Assembly (NCBI GenBank): GCA_024228575.1
Contig: JAAETH010000798.1
Location: 1 to 62,821, forward strand
Direction of reading: 5' to 3'
From: Actinomycetes bacterium
Lineage (GTDB): Bacteria; Actinomycetota; Acidimicrobiia; Acidimicrobiales; Poriferisodalaceae
Length of the DNA: 62,821 bases
The notes under the pieces were generated by a model. It made no database searches and had not been told where the DNA came from. It was given only the letters and a program-made list of their open reading frames with translations. This document shows positions 33,207 to 38,823 of the stretch, piece by piece. The position numbers were made by a program, and so were the translations under genes. Within the stretch, counting starts at the first letter, position 1; each line of letters begins with the position of its first letter.

Positions 33207-34484
33207 ATGCCACCCGAACTACCACCTGAGGCCGGTCTCGACCGCCTCGAGCTGATCGGCCGGGGCGGCTTCGGAGCCGTCTACAGAGCATTCGATCGCC
33301 ACCATTCCCGCCAGGTTGTGGTGAAGGTCCTCGATCATGGCCCGACACACCCAGAAGCCGGAGCTCGGTTCGAACGCGAACGGGCCGCCCTCGGGGCCTT
33401 GTCGGACCATCCGAACATCGTGACGCTGCACGATTCGGGGCGCAGTGCTGACGGGCGCCCCTATCTGGTCATGGAGTACTGCGCCGGTGGGTCACTCGCC
33501 GAGCGCATCGCTGAGGCACCCATGGACTGGGACTCCGCCACCTCGATCGCCATCTGTTTGGCCAGCGCTCTGCACGCAGCCCATTCCGCAGGTGTTCTAC
33601 ACAGGGACGTGAAGCCCGAGAACATCCTCTGCGCAGATTACGGCGACTGGAAACTGGCCGATTTCGGCGTCGCACTACTGGCGTCACGACATCGAACAGC
33701 TACCGGCGATCTGGTCGCCAGCTTCGCCCACGCTGCTCCCGAGACGTTCGGAAACGATCCATCGACTGCATCGCGAGATACGTACGGCCTCGCATCGACC
33801 CTCTACACGATGATGACGGGCACAGAGCCGTACGCCCCGCGAGATGGTGAGCCCCCGCTGGCCGTCATCCACCGAATCGCCACAGAACCATTTCCCGACC
33901 TGGGTTCCCACACGGTGCCCGACGAGGTGACAGGCGTCCTCGAAACCGCCCTGGCGAAGGATCCCGATCTGCGACACGGCTCGGCTCTGGGCTTCGCGGA
34001 AGCTCTGAACCAGGCGAGGGTTGCCCTGGGTCATGACCCAATCGAGTTCCGAACCCGCCCCACTACCAGCAATCCGAGACAACACACAAGTGTCGTGAAC
34101 TTCAGGCCACCTCCCGTGGCGGGAGAGACGTCCACACCAGAACGTGGATCGGGACCACGTCGCTCTGTGGGTGTGGCGGCTGCGCTGATCATCGCGTGCG
34201 GATTCGGCACAGCCGCATATCTGGTGTCCGGCGACGAGGGTGTCACCGCCACTCTTGCCCAGGAAACAACGCTCGATCAAACACCCCTCGAGGTGCAGAT
34301 GGTGGTCCCTTCCACCATCGCTGACCCCGACGTTGGCGACGGAACCGGTGGGAACACAAACGGTGGCGGAGGCTCTCCACCGGCGCAAACGTCACTCTCG
34401 AACGACGGCGGCGGTCACGAACGAGATGGTGCCCGTTCCGGTGGCGGAAGACAAGCAGGGTCGAGGGCGAGGTCGAACCCATGA
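33207..34484 (+). CDS. Membrane Ser/Thr protein kinase (PknB-like), first gene of a six-gene coupled operon
   Basis: The 425-residue product has a Hanks-type kinase domain (1-275): glycine loop GRGGFGAVY (18-26), Lys40 in VVVKVL, catalytic HRDVKPEN with Asp134, ADFG with Asp152 and an APE motif. A transmembrane helix follows at about 314-334 and an extracellular Gly/Ser/Thr-rich tail of about 90 residues without PASTA repeats. It should phosphorylate Ser/Thr on cytoplasmic partners. AGAGG precedes the ATG. Its stop overlaps the flavoprotein start (ATGA). Confidence 0.93.
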   Translation: MPPELPPEAGLDRLELIGRGGFGAVYRAFDRHHSRQVVVKVLDHGPTHPEAGARFERERAALGALSDHPNIVTLHDSGRSADGRPYLVMEYCAGGSLAERIAEAPMDWDSATSIAICLASALHAAHSAGVLHRDVKPENILCADYGDWKLADFGVALLASRHRTATGDLVASFAHAAPETFGNDPSTASRDTYGLASTLYTMMTGTEPYAPRDGEPPLAVIHRIATEPFPDLGSHTVPDEVTGVLETALAKDPDLRHGSALGFAEALNQARVALGHDPIEFRTRPTTSNPRQHTSVVNFRPPPVAGETSTPERGSGPRRSVGVAAALIIACGFGTAAYLVSGDEGVTATLAQETTLDQTPLEVQMVVPSTIADPDVGDGTGGNTNGGGGSPPAQTSLSNDGGGHERDGARSGGGRQAGSRARSNP

Positions 34485-36043
34485 GCACCGTGAGAACCTC
34501 ACAGAAATCGATGCTGGATCAGCTCCTCATACAAGACAAGTGGAAACGCGACGACCTGCTCGACCTGGGCATCCGAGTCATCGACGCACCGTTGGTCACC
34601 GTCGGGGGTGGGCTGGGATCGTTCGCTCTCGCCGATCACCTTCGAGTTGCCGGTGTACCGGCGTCGGAGATCGTCGTTCTGGGCCCATGTTCGGATCCTT
34701 CCGACACGTACCGTCGCCTCGCTTCGAACTCACAGATCCCCGACAACGAACGCCTTCGTTCGGACTCCGGCTCGACGATCGACAACATCTGGGGTTTTCC
34801 CAGCTACGCACTTCGTGAGGCCTGGCACGATCGCTCCCTCACACCTCTGATGAAGGTCGCCACCGAACCGATCCTCACCGAGTACTTCACGCCGCGGGCA
34901 GGCCAGGTTTACGCGGGAGTGGATCGCGAATGTGACCGCATCGGCTGGAGCTCGATGTTCCACAAGGGCTGGGTCCGCACGATCAGACCAGACCGCGATG
35001 GTGGCTACTTCGTGCTCTTCACCGTCGAGAAGGGTCTGGCCGTCGACGGTCGGCGGCAAATCGAACGAATCGCCTTCAGGTGCCGAACGGTCCACGTGGC
35101 CGTCGGGTATCCGGGTCTGGCACTACTCCCGGACCTGGCTTCGTTCCGGAAGCGGTACCCGGATCATTCCCATCGGGTCTCCAACGCATACGAACCCCAC
35201 GATCACGTCTACGACGAGCTTTCTCATCGCAGCTCGACGATCGTCATCCGGGGAAGTGGGATCGTCGCCTCACGCGTTCTGCAGCGCTTGCTCGACGACC
35301 GAAGAACCCTCGGTACCAACACACGTATCGTCCATCTCTTTCGCCACTATGTCGACGGCCCTCAGGGCGATAGTCCAAGGTTCAGACGCCAGGGCGGCGG
35401 CGGATTCGCCTACCAACCATTCAACTTCCCCAAAGCCGCATGGTCGGGCCAGCTCCGCGAACATCTCGAAGGCCTCGAGAGTTCCGAACGGGCAGATCTG
35501 ATCAACCGCATGGGTGGAACGAACACAGCACCGCGCAAGGCCTGGCAGCGTCAGCTGGCCGAGGCCAGAGAAGCAGGTGTGTACCTCCAGAGGATCGGTC
35601 GGGTCACCGACATCGAGCCGACCGGATCAGGGCTTCGGATCGTACTCGACCCCTCCGACGGTGGCTCGGCGATCGTCGAGGCAAACCACATCGTCGATGC
35701 GACCGGACTGTTGGCCGAGATGACCCAGCATCGCCTGCTCGCAGATCTGCTGACCCACTGCGGTGCAGGTCAGAACTCGAAGGGGCGCCTCGACGTCGAT
35801 CCCGACTTCGAGGTCAGAGGAACCAGGTCGGGCGAGGGCAAGATGTACGCATCGGGGGCCATGACCCTCGGGGGCCACTACGCAGGTGTCGACTCGTTCC
35901 TCGGACTCCAATATGCCGCCCTCCGGATAACCGATCAGATGTCGAACGACGGCCTGTGTCGTGCCCTGAGTCCAGGGCGCAACGCATCGGGCTGGACCCG
36001 CTGGGCTCTCGGAAGGCCACCCCGCAATCGGAGGGCAGCATGA
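34481..36043 (+). CDS. FAD/NAD(P)-binding flavoprotein of unknown function in the kinase operon
   Basis: The 520-residue product has an N-terminal Rossmann nucleotide motif VTVGGGLGSFALADHL (39-54), a middle segment with GSGIVASRVLQRLLDD (second Rossmann turn, likely NAD(P)) and a C-terminal FAD-type segment ASGAMTLGGHYAGVDSF. The overall order suggests a flavin-dependent oxidoreductase or monooxygenase, but I do not recognise a family with known function. There is no signal or membrane helix. It is embedded between a kinase and two membrane proteins with overlapping start/stop codons on both sides, so it is probably a core partner of the signalling unit. Confidence 0.7.
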   Translation: MSTVRTSQKSMLDQLLIQDKWKRDDLLDLGIRVIDAPLVTVGGGLGSFALADHLRVAGVPASEIVVLGPCSDPSDTYRRLASNSQIPDNERLRSDSGSTIDNIWGFPSYALREAWHDRSLTPLMKVATEPILTEYFTPRAGQVYAGVDRECDRIGWSSMFHKGWVRTIRPDRDGGYFVLFTVEKGLAVDGRRQIERIAFRCRTVHVAVGYPGLALLPDLASFRKRYPDHSHRVSNAYEPHDHVYDELSHRSSTIVIRGSGIVASRVLQRLLDDRRTLGTNTRIVHLFRHYVDGPQGDSPRFRRQGGGGFAYQPFNFPKAAWSGQLREHLEGLESSERADLINRMGGTNTAPRKAWQRQLAEAREAGVYLQRIGRVTDIEPTGSGLRIVLDPSDGGSAIVEANHIVDATGLLAEMTQHRLLADLLTHCGAGQNSKGRLDVDPDFEVRGTRSGEGKMYASGAMTLGGHYAGVDSFLGLQYAALRITDQMSNDGLCRALSPGRNASGWTRWALGRPPRNRRAA

Positions 36044-36486
36044 CTCCGACGCTCGCAGGCCGAATCCAGACCCGTCTGCTGTTGCTCTCGACCATCGGAC
36101 TGGCATGGGTCGTGCTGGTCGCCGCCCTGCTGGGCGGTTCGGCATCGCCGTCGTACACGGATCGGCTCAGGGCCGGTGTGGCCGCGCTGATCATCACCAT
36201 GCTCCTGGGCGTGGTGTGGGAGCTCGTGTACCACGCGGCTCAGCAGTACCGCTGGGAGAAGGACTGGCCGACCGGCCTGGCCCTCGCTGTGGGACTGACC
36301 GAGGGCACCGCAGTCTGGTTCGCACTGAACACAGCGGCACGGCGTTCGACCCTCGTACCATCCATGACAGTCCCGATGTTCGTCGTGGTGTTCGGGACGA
36401 CCTGGCTCTTGATCTGGCTGTTCGCCAGCGGCCCGATGAGGGTCGTGGCTTTGCGGTGGCGCTATCGGGGCGGTCGGTTGTTGTGA
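36040..36486 (+). CDS. Small polytopic membrane protein of the kinase operon
   Basis: This 148-residue protein has about four hydrophobic segments (around 12-30, 45-60, 78-92 and 107-125) and a basic C-terminus (RWRYRGGRLL). It overlaps the flavoprotein stop by ATGA and the TSUP gene by GTGA. Family not recognised. It may anchor or couple the flavoprotein to the membrane. Confidence 0.7.
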   Translation: MTPTLAGRIQTRLLLLSTIGLAWVVLVAALLGGSASPSYTDRLRAGVAALIITMLLGVVWELVYHAAQQYRWEKDWPTGLALAVGLTEGTAVWFALNTAARRSTLVPSMTVPMFVVVFGTTWLLIWLFASGPMRVVALRWRYRGGRLL

Positions 36487-37610
36487 GCCCGGCGCCGCTC
36501 GAGCGTTCGCAGATCGACGGGTTCCTCGTGTCGTCGGCCCAAAGGCACAACACGCGGACAGCCCGACGCCAAGCCGTTGCCCTGACAATCCCTGCCGGGA
36601 TCGTCCTCATCTGGGCGACGGCAACAACGCTTACCGGCTCGTGGCCGGTGGTTGCCGACGGCTTGACAGCGGCAATCACCATGGTCGCCGGATCGCTCGT
36701 AGCAGGAAGCACTCCACAGGGAGGGGGTGCCGTCGCTTTTCCGGTTCTCACGAAGGGTCTCGACGTCAGCGTGGCCGATGCCCGCACATTCTCGCTGTGT
36801 ATCCAGGCGGTCGGTATGGGTAGCGCCACCCTGACGATGGTTGCACTTCGCCGCCGCATCGAATGGCGGGCTCTGACCAGGGTCATCCCCGCTTCGATGG
36901 TCGGGTTTGCCACCGGACTCACCCTCGAGGCCCTCTCACCTCTGAGCGATGCTTGGGTGAAGGTCGGGTTCACCGGGTTGGTTGCGTTCATGGCCATGGG
37001 CATGGTCGTGGGCCGGCGGCTTCCGGTGCGAGAGTCCTACATCTCGGCCGGCCTCGGCCCAATCCCCCTGGTCGCCATCGGATACATCGGAGGTGTTGCG
37101 GCCGCTCTCGTGGGTAGCGGCACCGACGTGGTCCTGTACCTGGGAATGGTCGTAGCGGCAGGACTGTCACCGAGGATTGGTGTGGCTACGTCGGTAGCGG
37201 CGATGGCCGCGCTCTCGACCGTTGGCCTGCTCACGCTGGGCCTGGTCGGCGGTTCACTGTTCGACACGTCAACACCTTCATCGGTCGGAACGATGTGGCT
37301 GGCGGCCGTTCCCGTCGTCGCCATCGGAGCACCTGTCGGTGCGTGGATCGCTCACCGCATCGCGGAGTCGACACTGATCTGCATCATCGCCGCCATGGCG
37401 GCGGTCGAGGCGATCTCGACGTTCGTCTTGGTGGAACAGTTGAGAACCAATTCGCTCCTGCTGATAGCTGCGGCTGTGGCAGCCATGGCGATCATCATCG
37501 TGGGACCAAGCGCCTCGCGATCCGCCCGCAGACGTTTGCGATGTCGCTCAGCGGGCTTGGATCGTGCCCTCACGAGGGGCGAACTGACACTTCACGGGTT
37601 GACGTCGTGA
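36483..37610 (+). CDS. TSUP (TauE/SafE-like) membrane permease
   Basis: The 375-residue product has about ten membrane helices with the duplicated TSUP pattern: a first half rich in GSLVAGSTPQGGGAVAFPVL and a second with GGVAAALVGSGTDVVLYL. TSUP proteins export sulfite, sulfoacetate or related anions, or import sulfur compounds. A cytoplasmic N-terminal extension of about 30 residues (SSAQRHNTRTARRQ) contains Ser/Thr and Arg and is a possible kinase target. The GTG start overlaps the previous stop; its own stop overlaps the second kinase start. Confidence 0.82.
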   Translation: MSPAPLERSQIDGFLVSSAQRHNTRTARRQAVALTIPAGIVLIWATATTLTGSWPVVADGLTAAITMVAGSLVAGSTPQGGGAVAFPVLTKGLDVSVADARTFSLCIQAVGMGSATLTMVALRRRIEWRALTRVIPASMVGFATGLTLEALSPLSDAWVKVGFTGLVAFMAMGMVVGRRLPVRESYISAGLGPIPLVAIGYIGGVAAALVGSGTDVVLYLGMVVAAGLSPRIGVATSVAAMAALSTVGLLTLGLVGGSLFDTSTPSSVGTMWLAAVPVVAIGAPVGAWIAHRIAESTLICIIAAMAAVEAISTFVLVEQLRTNSLLLIAAAVAAMAIIIVGPSASRSARRRLRCRSAGLDRALTRGELTLHGLTS

Positions 37611-38386
37611 GCAGCCCATCGCGACGGCGCCAGTGGAGAATCGGCCGCGATCTGGGTCCTGCCAACCACGGCAGGTTCTGTGAGGCGATCAGCCGAACGG
37701 GAACCGTCGCCGTGGCGAAGATGGCGGATGCCTCCGGAGAGGCTGCCCACTCACGCATCACCAACGAAATCGAAGTTGTTGCATCGTTGAACGAACGAGG
37801 ATTGCTCGATGTCATCGGTGTGGGTGAACATCGGGCCGCCCTGTTCTACGTGACACCCATGATGACGAGCACACCTCCCCACGCTGATCGCGACGAGATT
37901 GCGCGCTCGGTTCTGCACCATGTCGGAGCGACCCTGATGGCCCTGCACGACATGGACGTCGCTCACCGTGACGTCAGGCCGCACAACATCGTCTGGCAAA
38001 GCGACATGCCTCGTCTCGTCGACTATGGACTCACGCAGATGCTCGGACCGGACAGTCGGACGTCGGGCGTCGGCCCGCTGGGATCCGTCGCCTTCATGGC
38101 GCCCGAGCTCTTGACCGGGATGCCGTCGGACCACCGCGTCGACATCTGGGCTCTAGGGGCCACGCTCCACGTCATCGCTACCGGACGTGGCATCTACCCG
38201 GGGATGTCGGACGACGACGTGACCTCTGCAATTGCCACGCTGGCCACCTCCCAGCCCGAAATCGCAGACGGCCTGGCTCCCGATCTGGGAACCGCGATCC
38301 GTTGGTGCCTCGACGAGCCGGGCCGACGGTGTCGCGACATCGCGAACCTTCTCCAAGCAACAGCCAAAACAGGAGCAATCAGATGA
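37607..38386 (+). CDS. Second protein kinase-like protein, soluble, with altered motifs
   Basis: This 259-residue protein keeps Lys38 (VAVAKM), a likely alpha-C Glu55, HRDVRPHN with Asp122 and Asn127, and an APE-like APELLTG. The glycine loop is degenerate (GRDLGPANHGRF) and the metal-binding DFG reads DYG (139-141). It may be a weak kinase or a pseudokinase scaffold. No membrane helix is present, unlike the first kinase of the operon. It overlaps its neighbours on both sides (GTGA and ATGA). Confidence 0.85.
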   Translation: MSSPSRRRQWRIGRDLGPANHGRFCEAISRTGTVAVAKMADASGEAAHSRITNEIEVVASLNERGLLDVIGVGEHRAALFYVTPMMTSTPPHADRDEIARSVLHHVGATLMALHDMDVAHRDVRPHNIVWQSDMPRLVDYGLTQMLGPDSRTSGVGPLGSVAFMAPELLTGMPSDHRVDIWALGATLHVIATGRGIYPGMSDDDVTSAIATLATSQPEIADGLAPDLGTAIRWCLDEPGRRCRDIANLLQATAKTGAIR

Positions 38387-38823
38387 GCCAGCGCGTGCGT
38401 GGCATCGCCTCGCCCTCACAATATGTGAACCACCCCAAGGCGACGTTCTGTCGCTCATCTGGGGTACGTCTCGGGGCGAGCAGGACGCGTCACCTGGCCG
38501 AGACAACGAGACCCCCGGTGATGGTGCTGGTGTTCGAAGACGGCTCCAGCACAGCGATCCGAGACCTCACGACGATCGGTACAGCGAGTGACAACCACCT
38601 ACAGGTCGGGACGGCCGACGGAAGTGTTTCTCGACGCCATCTCGAGATCAGGGTCGAGGGGTGGTCGGTGCTGATATGTGATCTGGGATCCACCAACGGA
38701 ACCTGGCGGTGTCACAGTTCGAAGGTGTGGGAACGGATGTCCCCGAATCGAAACGTGCCTCTCGAACCGGGCGATCGAGTCGCGTTCGGAGACCGTTGGC
38801 TGACGGTCCACCCGTTGTGGTGA
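38383..38823 (+). CDS. FHA-domain protein ending the kinase operon
   Basis: This 146-residue protein has a C-terminal FHA domain (about 50-146) with the phosphothreonine-binding landmarks SVSRRHLEI and DLGSTNGTW. The N-terminal 45 residues are basic and unstructured, with several Thr residues that could be autophosphorylation targets. A strong AGGAG lies 9 bases before its ATG, in addition to the overlap with the kinase-like gene, so it may be made in excess. It is the obvious phospho-Thr reader for the two kinases. Confidence 0.88.
   Translation: MSQRVRGIASPSQYVNHPKATFCRSSGVRLGASRTRHLAETTRPPVMVLVFEDGSSTAIRDLTTIGTASDNHLQVGTADGSVSRRHLEIRVEGWSVLICDLGSTNGTWRCHSSKVWERMSPNRNVPLEPGDRVAFGDRWLTVHPLW

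Follow-up and report, generated by a model that had tools for sequence, protein, structure and literature searches.

The flavoprotein KefF is required for full activity of KefC, an antiporter of the CPA2 family (PMC10224563). In the KefF-KefC and KefG-KefB systems, the gene of a flavoprotein oxidoreductase lies beside that of the CPA2 transporter, with overlaps of a few bases and a redox/electrophile logic (PMC10224563). In M. tuberculosis, the kinase PknF and the transporter Rv1747 are encoded in one operon, and an FHA domain serves as phospho-reader (PMC3908365, PMC5549992). Zeaxanthin epoxidase of plants and algae carries an FAD oxygenase domain and an FHA domain on one chain (PMC11429058). 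Here we describe an operon that resembles each of these systems in part. It was found on contig JAAETH010000798.1 (assembly GCA_024228575.1) from an Actinomycetes bacterium of the Poriferisodalaceae; the 62,821 nucleotides analysed are referred to as the window, and the operon occupies positions 33207-38823 of its + strand, to which all coordinates below refer. Its six genes, A to F, encode a receptor-type Ser/Thr kinase (A), a flavoprotein (B), a four-helix membrane protein (C), a permease of the TSUP (TauE/SafE) family (D), a soluble kinase-like protein (E) and an FHA-domain protein (F). The genomic distribution of these genes indicates that B and C are obligate partners and make up the core of the module, the most important fact about the operon and one that was missed by a first-pass annotation made from the DNA alone.

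In contrast to the quinone reductases of the Kef systems, which are of about 20 kDa, B is a protein of 520 amino acids with two Rossmann domains that resembles flavin-containing and N-hydroxylating monooxygenases. It is accompanied by C, with four transmembrane (TM) segments, as well as by kinases and an FHA protein, whereas Kef has no C-type partner. The transporter of the window is a TSUP protein; CPA2 transporters, some with a Usp domain, are found in many of the related loci. As in PknF-Rv1747, a catalytically complete Ser/Thr kinase (A) is present in the operon, but Rv1747 is an ABC transporter with built-in FHA domains, D is a TSUP protein without one, and PknF-Rv1747 includes neither a flavoprotein nor a C-type membrane protein. 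The signature of phospho-Thr-binding FHA domains is retained in most family relatives of F (GR) but not in F of the window (IGT). Zeaxanthin epoxidase epoxidises carotenoids, and no recognisable relation between it and B was found in the searches run. Because the flavoprotein fold and the transporter differ and a C-type partner is missing from both described systems, we do not claim membership of the operon in the KefFC or the PknF-Rv1747 type. The first-pass annotation knew of no described system with such a content, and our search of open-access papers (subscription papers and preprints were outside its scope) likewise found no description that combines a flavoprotein, a C-type protein, a kinase, an FHA protein and a transporter.

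In order to follow the genes across genomes, B homologues were gathered from whole genomes, a contig collection and one plasmid record, and their neighbourhoods were mapped with custom profiles. The synteny survey included 60 loci, 53 of them non-cyanobacterial. Most of the surveyed genomes are draft metagenome-assembled genomes whose kinship is known coarsely, and the co-occurrence counts ignore the tree. In a panel of 397 genomes of the window's order, B is present in 38 and C in exactly those 38; among 194 cyanobacteria both are found in the same 36. For independent genomes, such co-occurrence would arise by chance with a probability of less than 1e-39 in each panel; the genomes are not independent, so the figure is only a rough guide. 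A stronger argument for pairing comes from unlinked and doubled genes. B and C co-occur even when they are far apart, as in G374 (B at 49 kb, C at 3.80 Mb) and in G853, G910, G952, G942 and G980, and both are doubled in three genomes (G489, G666 and G959). The pair was found in Actinobacteria and Cyanobacteria as well as in at least one deltaproteobacterium. In 37 of the loci read, including that of the cultured Nonomuraea gerenzanensis, B and C again overlap by 4 bases. The B gene was not found in the 36 genomes of the same genus or family that were searched.

Gene B (34481-36043) has no counterpart among the NCBIfam families and none in Pfam that exceeds the cut-off, and its sole sequence match was MbtG (0.00096). 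Structure prediction, proposed as a check by the first-pass annotation, gave an AlphaFold2 model (built from a 55-sequence alignment; pLDDT 92.7) of a two-Rossmann FAD/NAD(P)H fold. The top Foldseek matches of this model were the N-hydroxylases PvdA and SidA (PvdA: E 1.8e-21, TMq 0.62, 17% identity), and VIA-align matched it to the bacillithiol disulfide reductase YpdA/Bdr (Z 26.0, 316 residues, rmsd 2.7, 14% identity) and to PvdA (Z 25.4 over 388 residues). B thus shares with the class B N-hydroxylases PvdA, SidA and MbtG the overall fold, two dinucleotide motifs and a DATG motif, which is found in class B flavoprotein monooxygenases. However, it is only about 15-17% identical to them, without a family-level match, and its partner and neighbours are unlike siderophore genes. 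YpdA/Bdr proteins have a conserved Cys in the first dinucleotide motif; in B this motif is GGGxGS, with no Cys. Motif conservation was counted by column over 87 sequences. The first motif, GGGLGS on the FAD side (34604-34621), includes the invariant G42 and G44; the second, GSGIVA on the NAD(P)H side (35252-35269), includes the invariant G258 and is followed by conserved H285-L286-x-R288; and in the DATG motif (35696-35707) D406 and T408 are each conserved in 86 of 87 sequences and G409 in all. Since both dinucleotide motifs and DATG are nearly invariant, B is very likely to be catalytically active with FAD and NAD(P)H. Its fold class leaves the reaction undefined, and no specific chemistry follows from it. 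A CxxC thiol-reductase role was rejected, as no Cys pair is conserved in the 87 sequences.

Gene C (36040-36486) encodes a protein of 148 amino acids without a relevant NCBIfam match or a Pfam match that reached the cut-off; a weak match to Sdh_cyt (E 0.0068) fell under the cut-off. The AlphaFold2 model predicts four long helices (pLDDT 93.4). No structure was matched by Foldseek at E ≤ 0.001, and the best VIA-align matches were helical receptors with Z 6.9, a background value for helical bundles. The distribution of Lys and Arg residues places both termini inside. Residues G7, R8, G57, W60, R71, D75 and E88 are invariant, and three segments are conserved: the N-terminal TPTLxGRIQTR, the loop QQxRWEKDWP and the C-terminal RWRFRGGR. 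In the predicted topology all of these segments, together with the positive charges, lie on the cytosolic side, and the other two loops vary in sequence and contain few Lys and Arg residues. Thr2, Thr4 and Thr11 are also conserved on the cytosolic side. Such a conserved face has the appearance expected of a docking surface for a cytosolic partner, for which B would be the candidate. A heme-cytochrome role for C is disfavoured because no His is invariant (H65 is found in 42 of 50 sequences).

The arrangement of the remaining genes around the pair is conserved. The full order kinase-B-C-TSUP-kinase-FHA is shared by the window and six other genomes (L028, L057, L088, L092, L094 and L095), although B is only about 50% identical among these seven loci. 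Eight more loci (L025, L026, L031, L046, L054, L087, L090 and L099) have B-C-TSUP-kinase-FHA without the first kinase directly upstream. The synteny of the flavoprotein with the kinase and FHA genes, on which the first-pass annotation had staked its proposal, is thus borne out; homologues without these genes, which it would have counted against itself, make up only a separate clade of 12 B-C loci. Of the 53 non-cyanobacterial loci, 31 have a kinase gene and 28 an FHA gene no more than 7 kb from B. Three cases are independent associations of parts of the pair with the same companions. In G612, C lies 9 kb from B and shares its stretch with a kinase gene, an FHA gene and an antiporter gene; in G374 the same three kinds of genes are found around C, far from B; and at L061 a distant B homologue (30% identity) directly follows a gene encoding a Na_H_Exchanger-Usp protein, with kinase and FHA genes adjoining. 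Chance clustering of the six genes is ruled out by the conserved order and the co-occurrence.

In the window, the six open reading frames (ORFs), whose coordinates all include the stop codon, and their junctions were verified: five consecutive 4-base overlaps with the words ATGA, ATGA, GTGA, GTGA and ATGA, in order from A to F, as the first-pass annotation had described. In a simple count, the whole window includes 20 such + strand links between ORFs of at least 100 amino acids, so that a lone 4-base overlap is ordinary; five in succession mark a tight operon. As such overlaps are common in the window, those of A to F are no proof of fixed stoichiometry, and the constant protein ratio that had been read from them does not follow.

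The permease gene D (36483-37610; 375 amino acids) matches Pfam TauE with 69.3 bits (E 5e-19; cut-off 32.6 bits), and has no close relative among solved structures. TSUP genes were found in 15 loci, always directly 3' of C. Loci that lack TSUP often have a CPA2 (Kef-type) antiporter instead: a gene of the Na_H_Exchanger family is found nearby in the TSUP-less loci L048, L049, L050, L051, L053, L098, L100 and L102-L105. Altogether, about ten actinobacterial loci and several cyanobacterial C loci carry CPA2/Na_H_Exchanger genes, and another lies next to the L061 homologue; some of these genes include a Usp domain. Two antiporters that were tested match the CPA2 model TIGR00932 with scores below its curated cut-off. 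Export of a sulfur anion, suggested earlier for the operon, is not supported, as its basis was the TSUP family label, which is no evidence, and other lineages have a cation/proton antiporter in place of TSUP.

The kinase encoded by gene A (33207-34484, stop codon included; 425 amino acids; Pfam Pkinase 9.2e-45) has intact G-loop, K, E, HRD, K, N and DFG motifs, and a single TM segment and a short extracellular tail come after its kinase domain. Catalytic motifs are complete in nearly all kinases at this position across the loci, and a TM segment is present in most. Kinases in the position of gene E (37607-38386; 259 amino acids; Pfam Pkinase 6.6e-25) have no TM segment and normally carry DLG instead of DFG. 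E of the window retains the HRD Asp, the catalytic Asn, the alpha-C Glu and the DYG Asp. One glycine of its glycine loop is missing, the beta-3 Lys is shifted by one residue and, in the catalytic loop HRDVRPHN (37964-37987), the Lys of HRDxK is replaced by Arg; on its sequence the protein is partly degenerate. It had been suspected to be a pseudokinase with a degenerate glycine loop. DYG alone is no sign of a pseudokinase since DLG is the norm for this position. For the family the suspicion is fair, because the catalytic Asp was repeatedly lost, with HRN, HRS, HRE, HRH or HAN in about ten loci. This position offers a natural series from kinase to pseudokinase within one place of an operon. The window genome (6.15 Mb) includes only 16 kinase and 8 FHA matches in total. 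No phosphatase is encoded in the operon, as had been noted before; the three PP2C genes of the genome all lie outside it.

Gene F (38383-38823; 146 amino acids; Pfam FHA 3.9e-13) is short compared to most of its relatives, whose N-terminal part of about 230 amino acids it lacks. The relatives are 349-500 amino acids long, with the FHA domain at the C-terminus, a Cys-rich stretch and a mostly retained GR motif. Where they have (V/I/L)GR, the family alignment shows IGT in F (38575-38583), so that the Arg that binds phospho-Thr is lost. Phospho-Thr reading by F, as the first-pass annotation had assumed, is thus doubtful in the window, although most relatives would remain capable of it. In the relatives (L025, L088, L091 and others) the FHA domain is preceded by an uncharacterised conserved N-terminal domain of about 150 amino acids, after which come a Pro-rich linker and a stretch that resembles a zinc ribbon, C..HxNHPxAxYCxxCG; F of the window has lost most of these parts. 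Searches of solved structures with the full-length relatives matched only the FHA part. Independent evidence that links FHA domains with the flavoprotein comes from Cyanobacteria, where all 30 B genes read in the survey encode an N-terminal FHA domain fused to B, and an FHA gene lies just upstream of B in nearly all of these loci.

Taking these results together, we tentatively favour the reading that the six genes specify an NAD(P)H flavoprotein unit that is bound to the membrane and coupled to an ion transporter, and that in most lineages is under the control of Ser/Thr kinases and FHA domains. In such a unit we infer that B would dock from the cytosol onto C. The receptor kinase A, perhaps with E as an adaptor, would phosphorylate Thr residues on C, the transporter or their partners, and FHA domains, either in F or fused to B, would tether the flavoprotein to the membrane. 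Transporter activity might then depend on the redox or ligand state of B or on the product that B makes, by analogy with KefF-KefC. A wider proposal is possible but on the unlikely side: in a two-protein membrane redox module shared by all the groups in which the pair occurs, FHA-phosphothreonine binding would recruit a class-B-like flavoprotein to its dedicated four-TM partner, and the flavoprotein would exert direct control over an ion transporter whose class can be exchanged.

Several observations weigh against this coupled unit. The well-supported clade of 12 B-C loci has no adjacent kinase, FHA or transporter gene, and therefore phospho-control is an added layer, and neither regulation nor coupling to transport is intrinsic to the pair. 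Many cyanobacterial B-C loci have no adjacent antiporter, and the class of transporter varies by lineage, so that the link to transport may be looser than direct gating. In addition, F of the window has lost its Arg and E is partly degenerate; a role as phospho-reader is for this reason doubtful in the window genome, where the reading step may be weakened.

Three other explanations were considered. The pair could instead act as a flavin monooxygenase anchored in the membrane, which would form or break down a small or lipid-soluble compound; the transporter would then move the product or a counter-ion, and kinase and FHA proteins would only time the reaction. The Foldseek matches to PvdA and SidA, the MbtG match and the retained DATG are consistent with this, as is the presence of other enzymes beside some B-C loci (for example a second FAD oxidoreductase and an SCP2 protein in L108). 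Yet no biosynthetic gene set recurs around B-C in the annotated loci, B is about 15% identical to any N-hydroxylase and none of 55 B members matched a Lys/Orn oxygenase family of Pfam, which leaves this an unlikely though serious alternative. Somewhat harder to sustain is a membrane NAD(P)H:acceptor oxidoreductase for redox balancing, in which C would be an anchor or quinone site and the transporter would compensate charge or pH. The layout of C, which is like that of small respiratory anchor subunits, its weak Sdh_cyt match, the tie of B with the NADPH reductase YpdA in VIA-align and a DM13 gene beside B in L102 speak for such a role. Against it, C has no invariant heme-type His, B has no active-site Cys pair and the Sdh_cyt match is below cut-off; we regard this role as rather improbable. 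That the kinase, FHA and TSUP genes have no relation to the pair and just happen to lie beside it in a gene-dense region is hardly credible: 4-base overlaps are indeed common in the window and one B-C clade lacks these genes, but the gene order is shared by seven divergent loci, the FHA fusion occurs in a second phylum and kinase and FHA genes accompany C at another chromosomal site.

Upstream of the operon, a gene of the CMD family ends about 190 bp before A, and a gene for a molybdopterin dehydrogenase subunit is also found on this side; downstream of F lies a convergent acyltransferase gene. The GC content of the operon (0.638) equals that of its surroundings, which disfavours recent foreign DNA. 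A promoter and terminator scan gave no signal exceeding shuffles. A role in anti-phage defence was rejected, since PADLOC recognised in A and E no more than a generic kinase domain (PD-T4-6, mad6) and gave no match for the other four proteins.

Other genes were observed around B-C elsewhere. In part of the B-C-only clade (L107, L109 and L111), B is immediately preceded by a lactonase-type beta-propeller gene (Pfam) of the same strand, and an NHL-repeat gene takes this place in L108. The DM13 (electron transfer) domain gene of L102 (7486-8070) is directly upstream of B, with a gene of similar size in the same place in L049. A nitrite/sulfite reductase gene directly follows the pair in L060 (11263-12951), where B is divergent in its middle part. 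Cyanobacterial B-C loci also lie near endonuclease V, GDSL-lipase and Coq4-like genes (L158:1295-1957, L158:6306-7028 and L159:8519-9217).

B and C belong to two families without a recognised name that are inseparable across two phyla, and they point to a new functional unit and a target for structural and genetic work. As cultured organisms carry the pair (Nonomuraea gerenzanensis and several cyanobacteria), it is directly testable. If the link to the transporter is real, it would unite three ideas that have until now been pursued separately: flavoprotein-gated antiporters such as Kef, kinase/FHA-controlled transporters such as PknF-Rv1747 and fusions of FHA domains with flavoenzymes. If the wider proposal of direct control is also true, the module would represent phosphorylation-gated, flavin-sensed ion transport.

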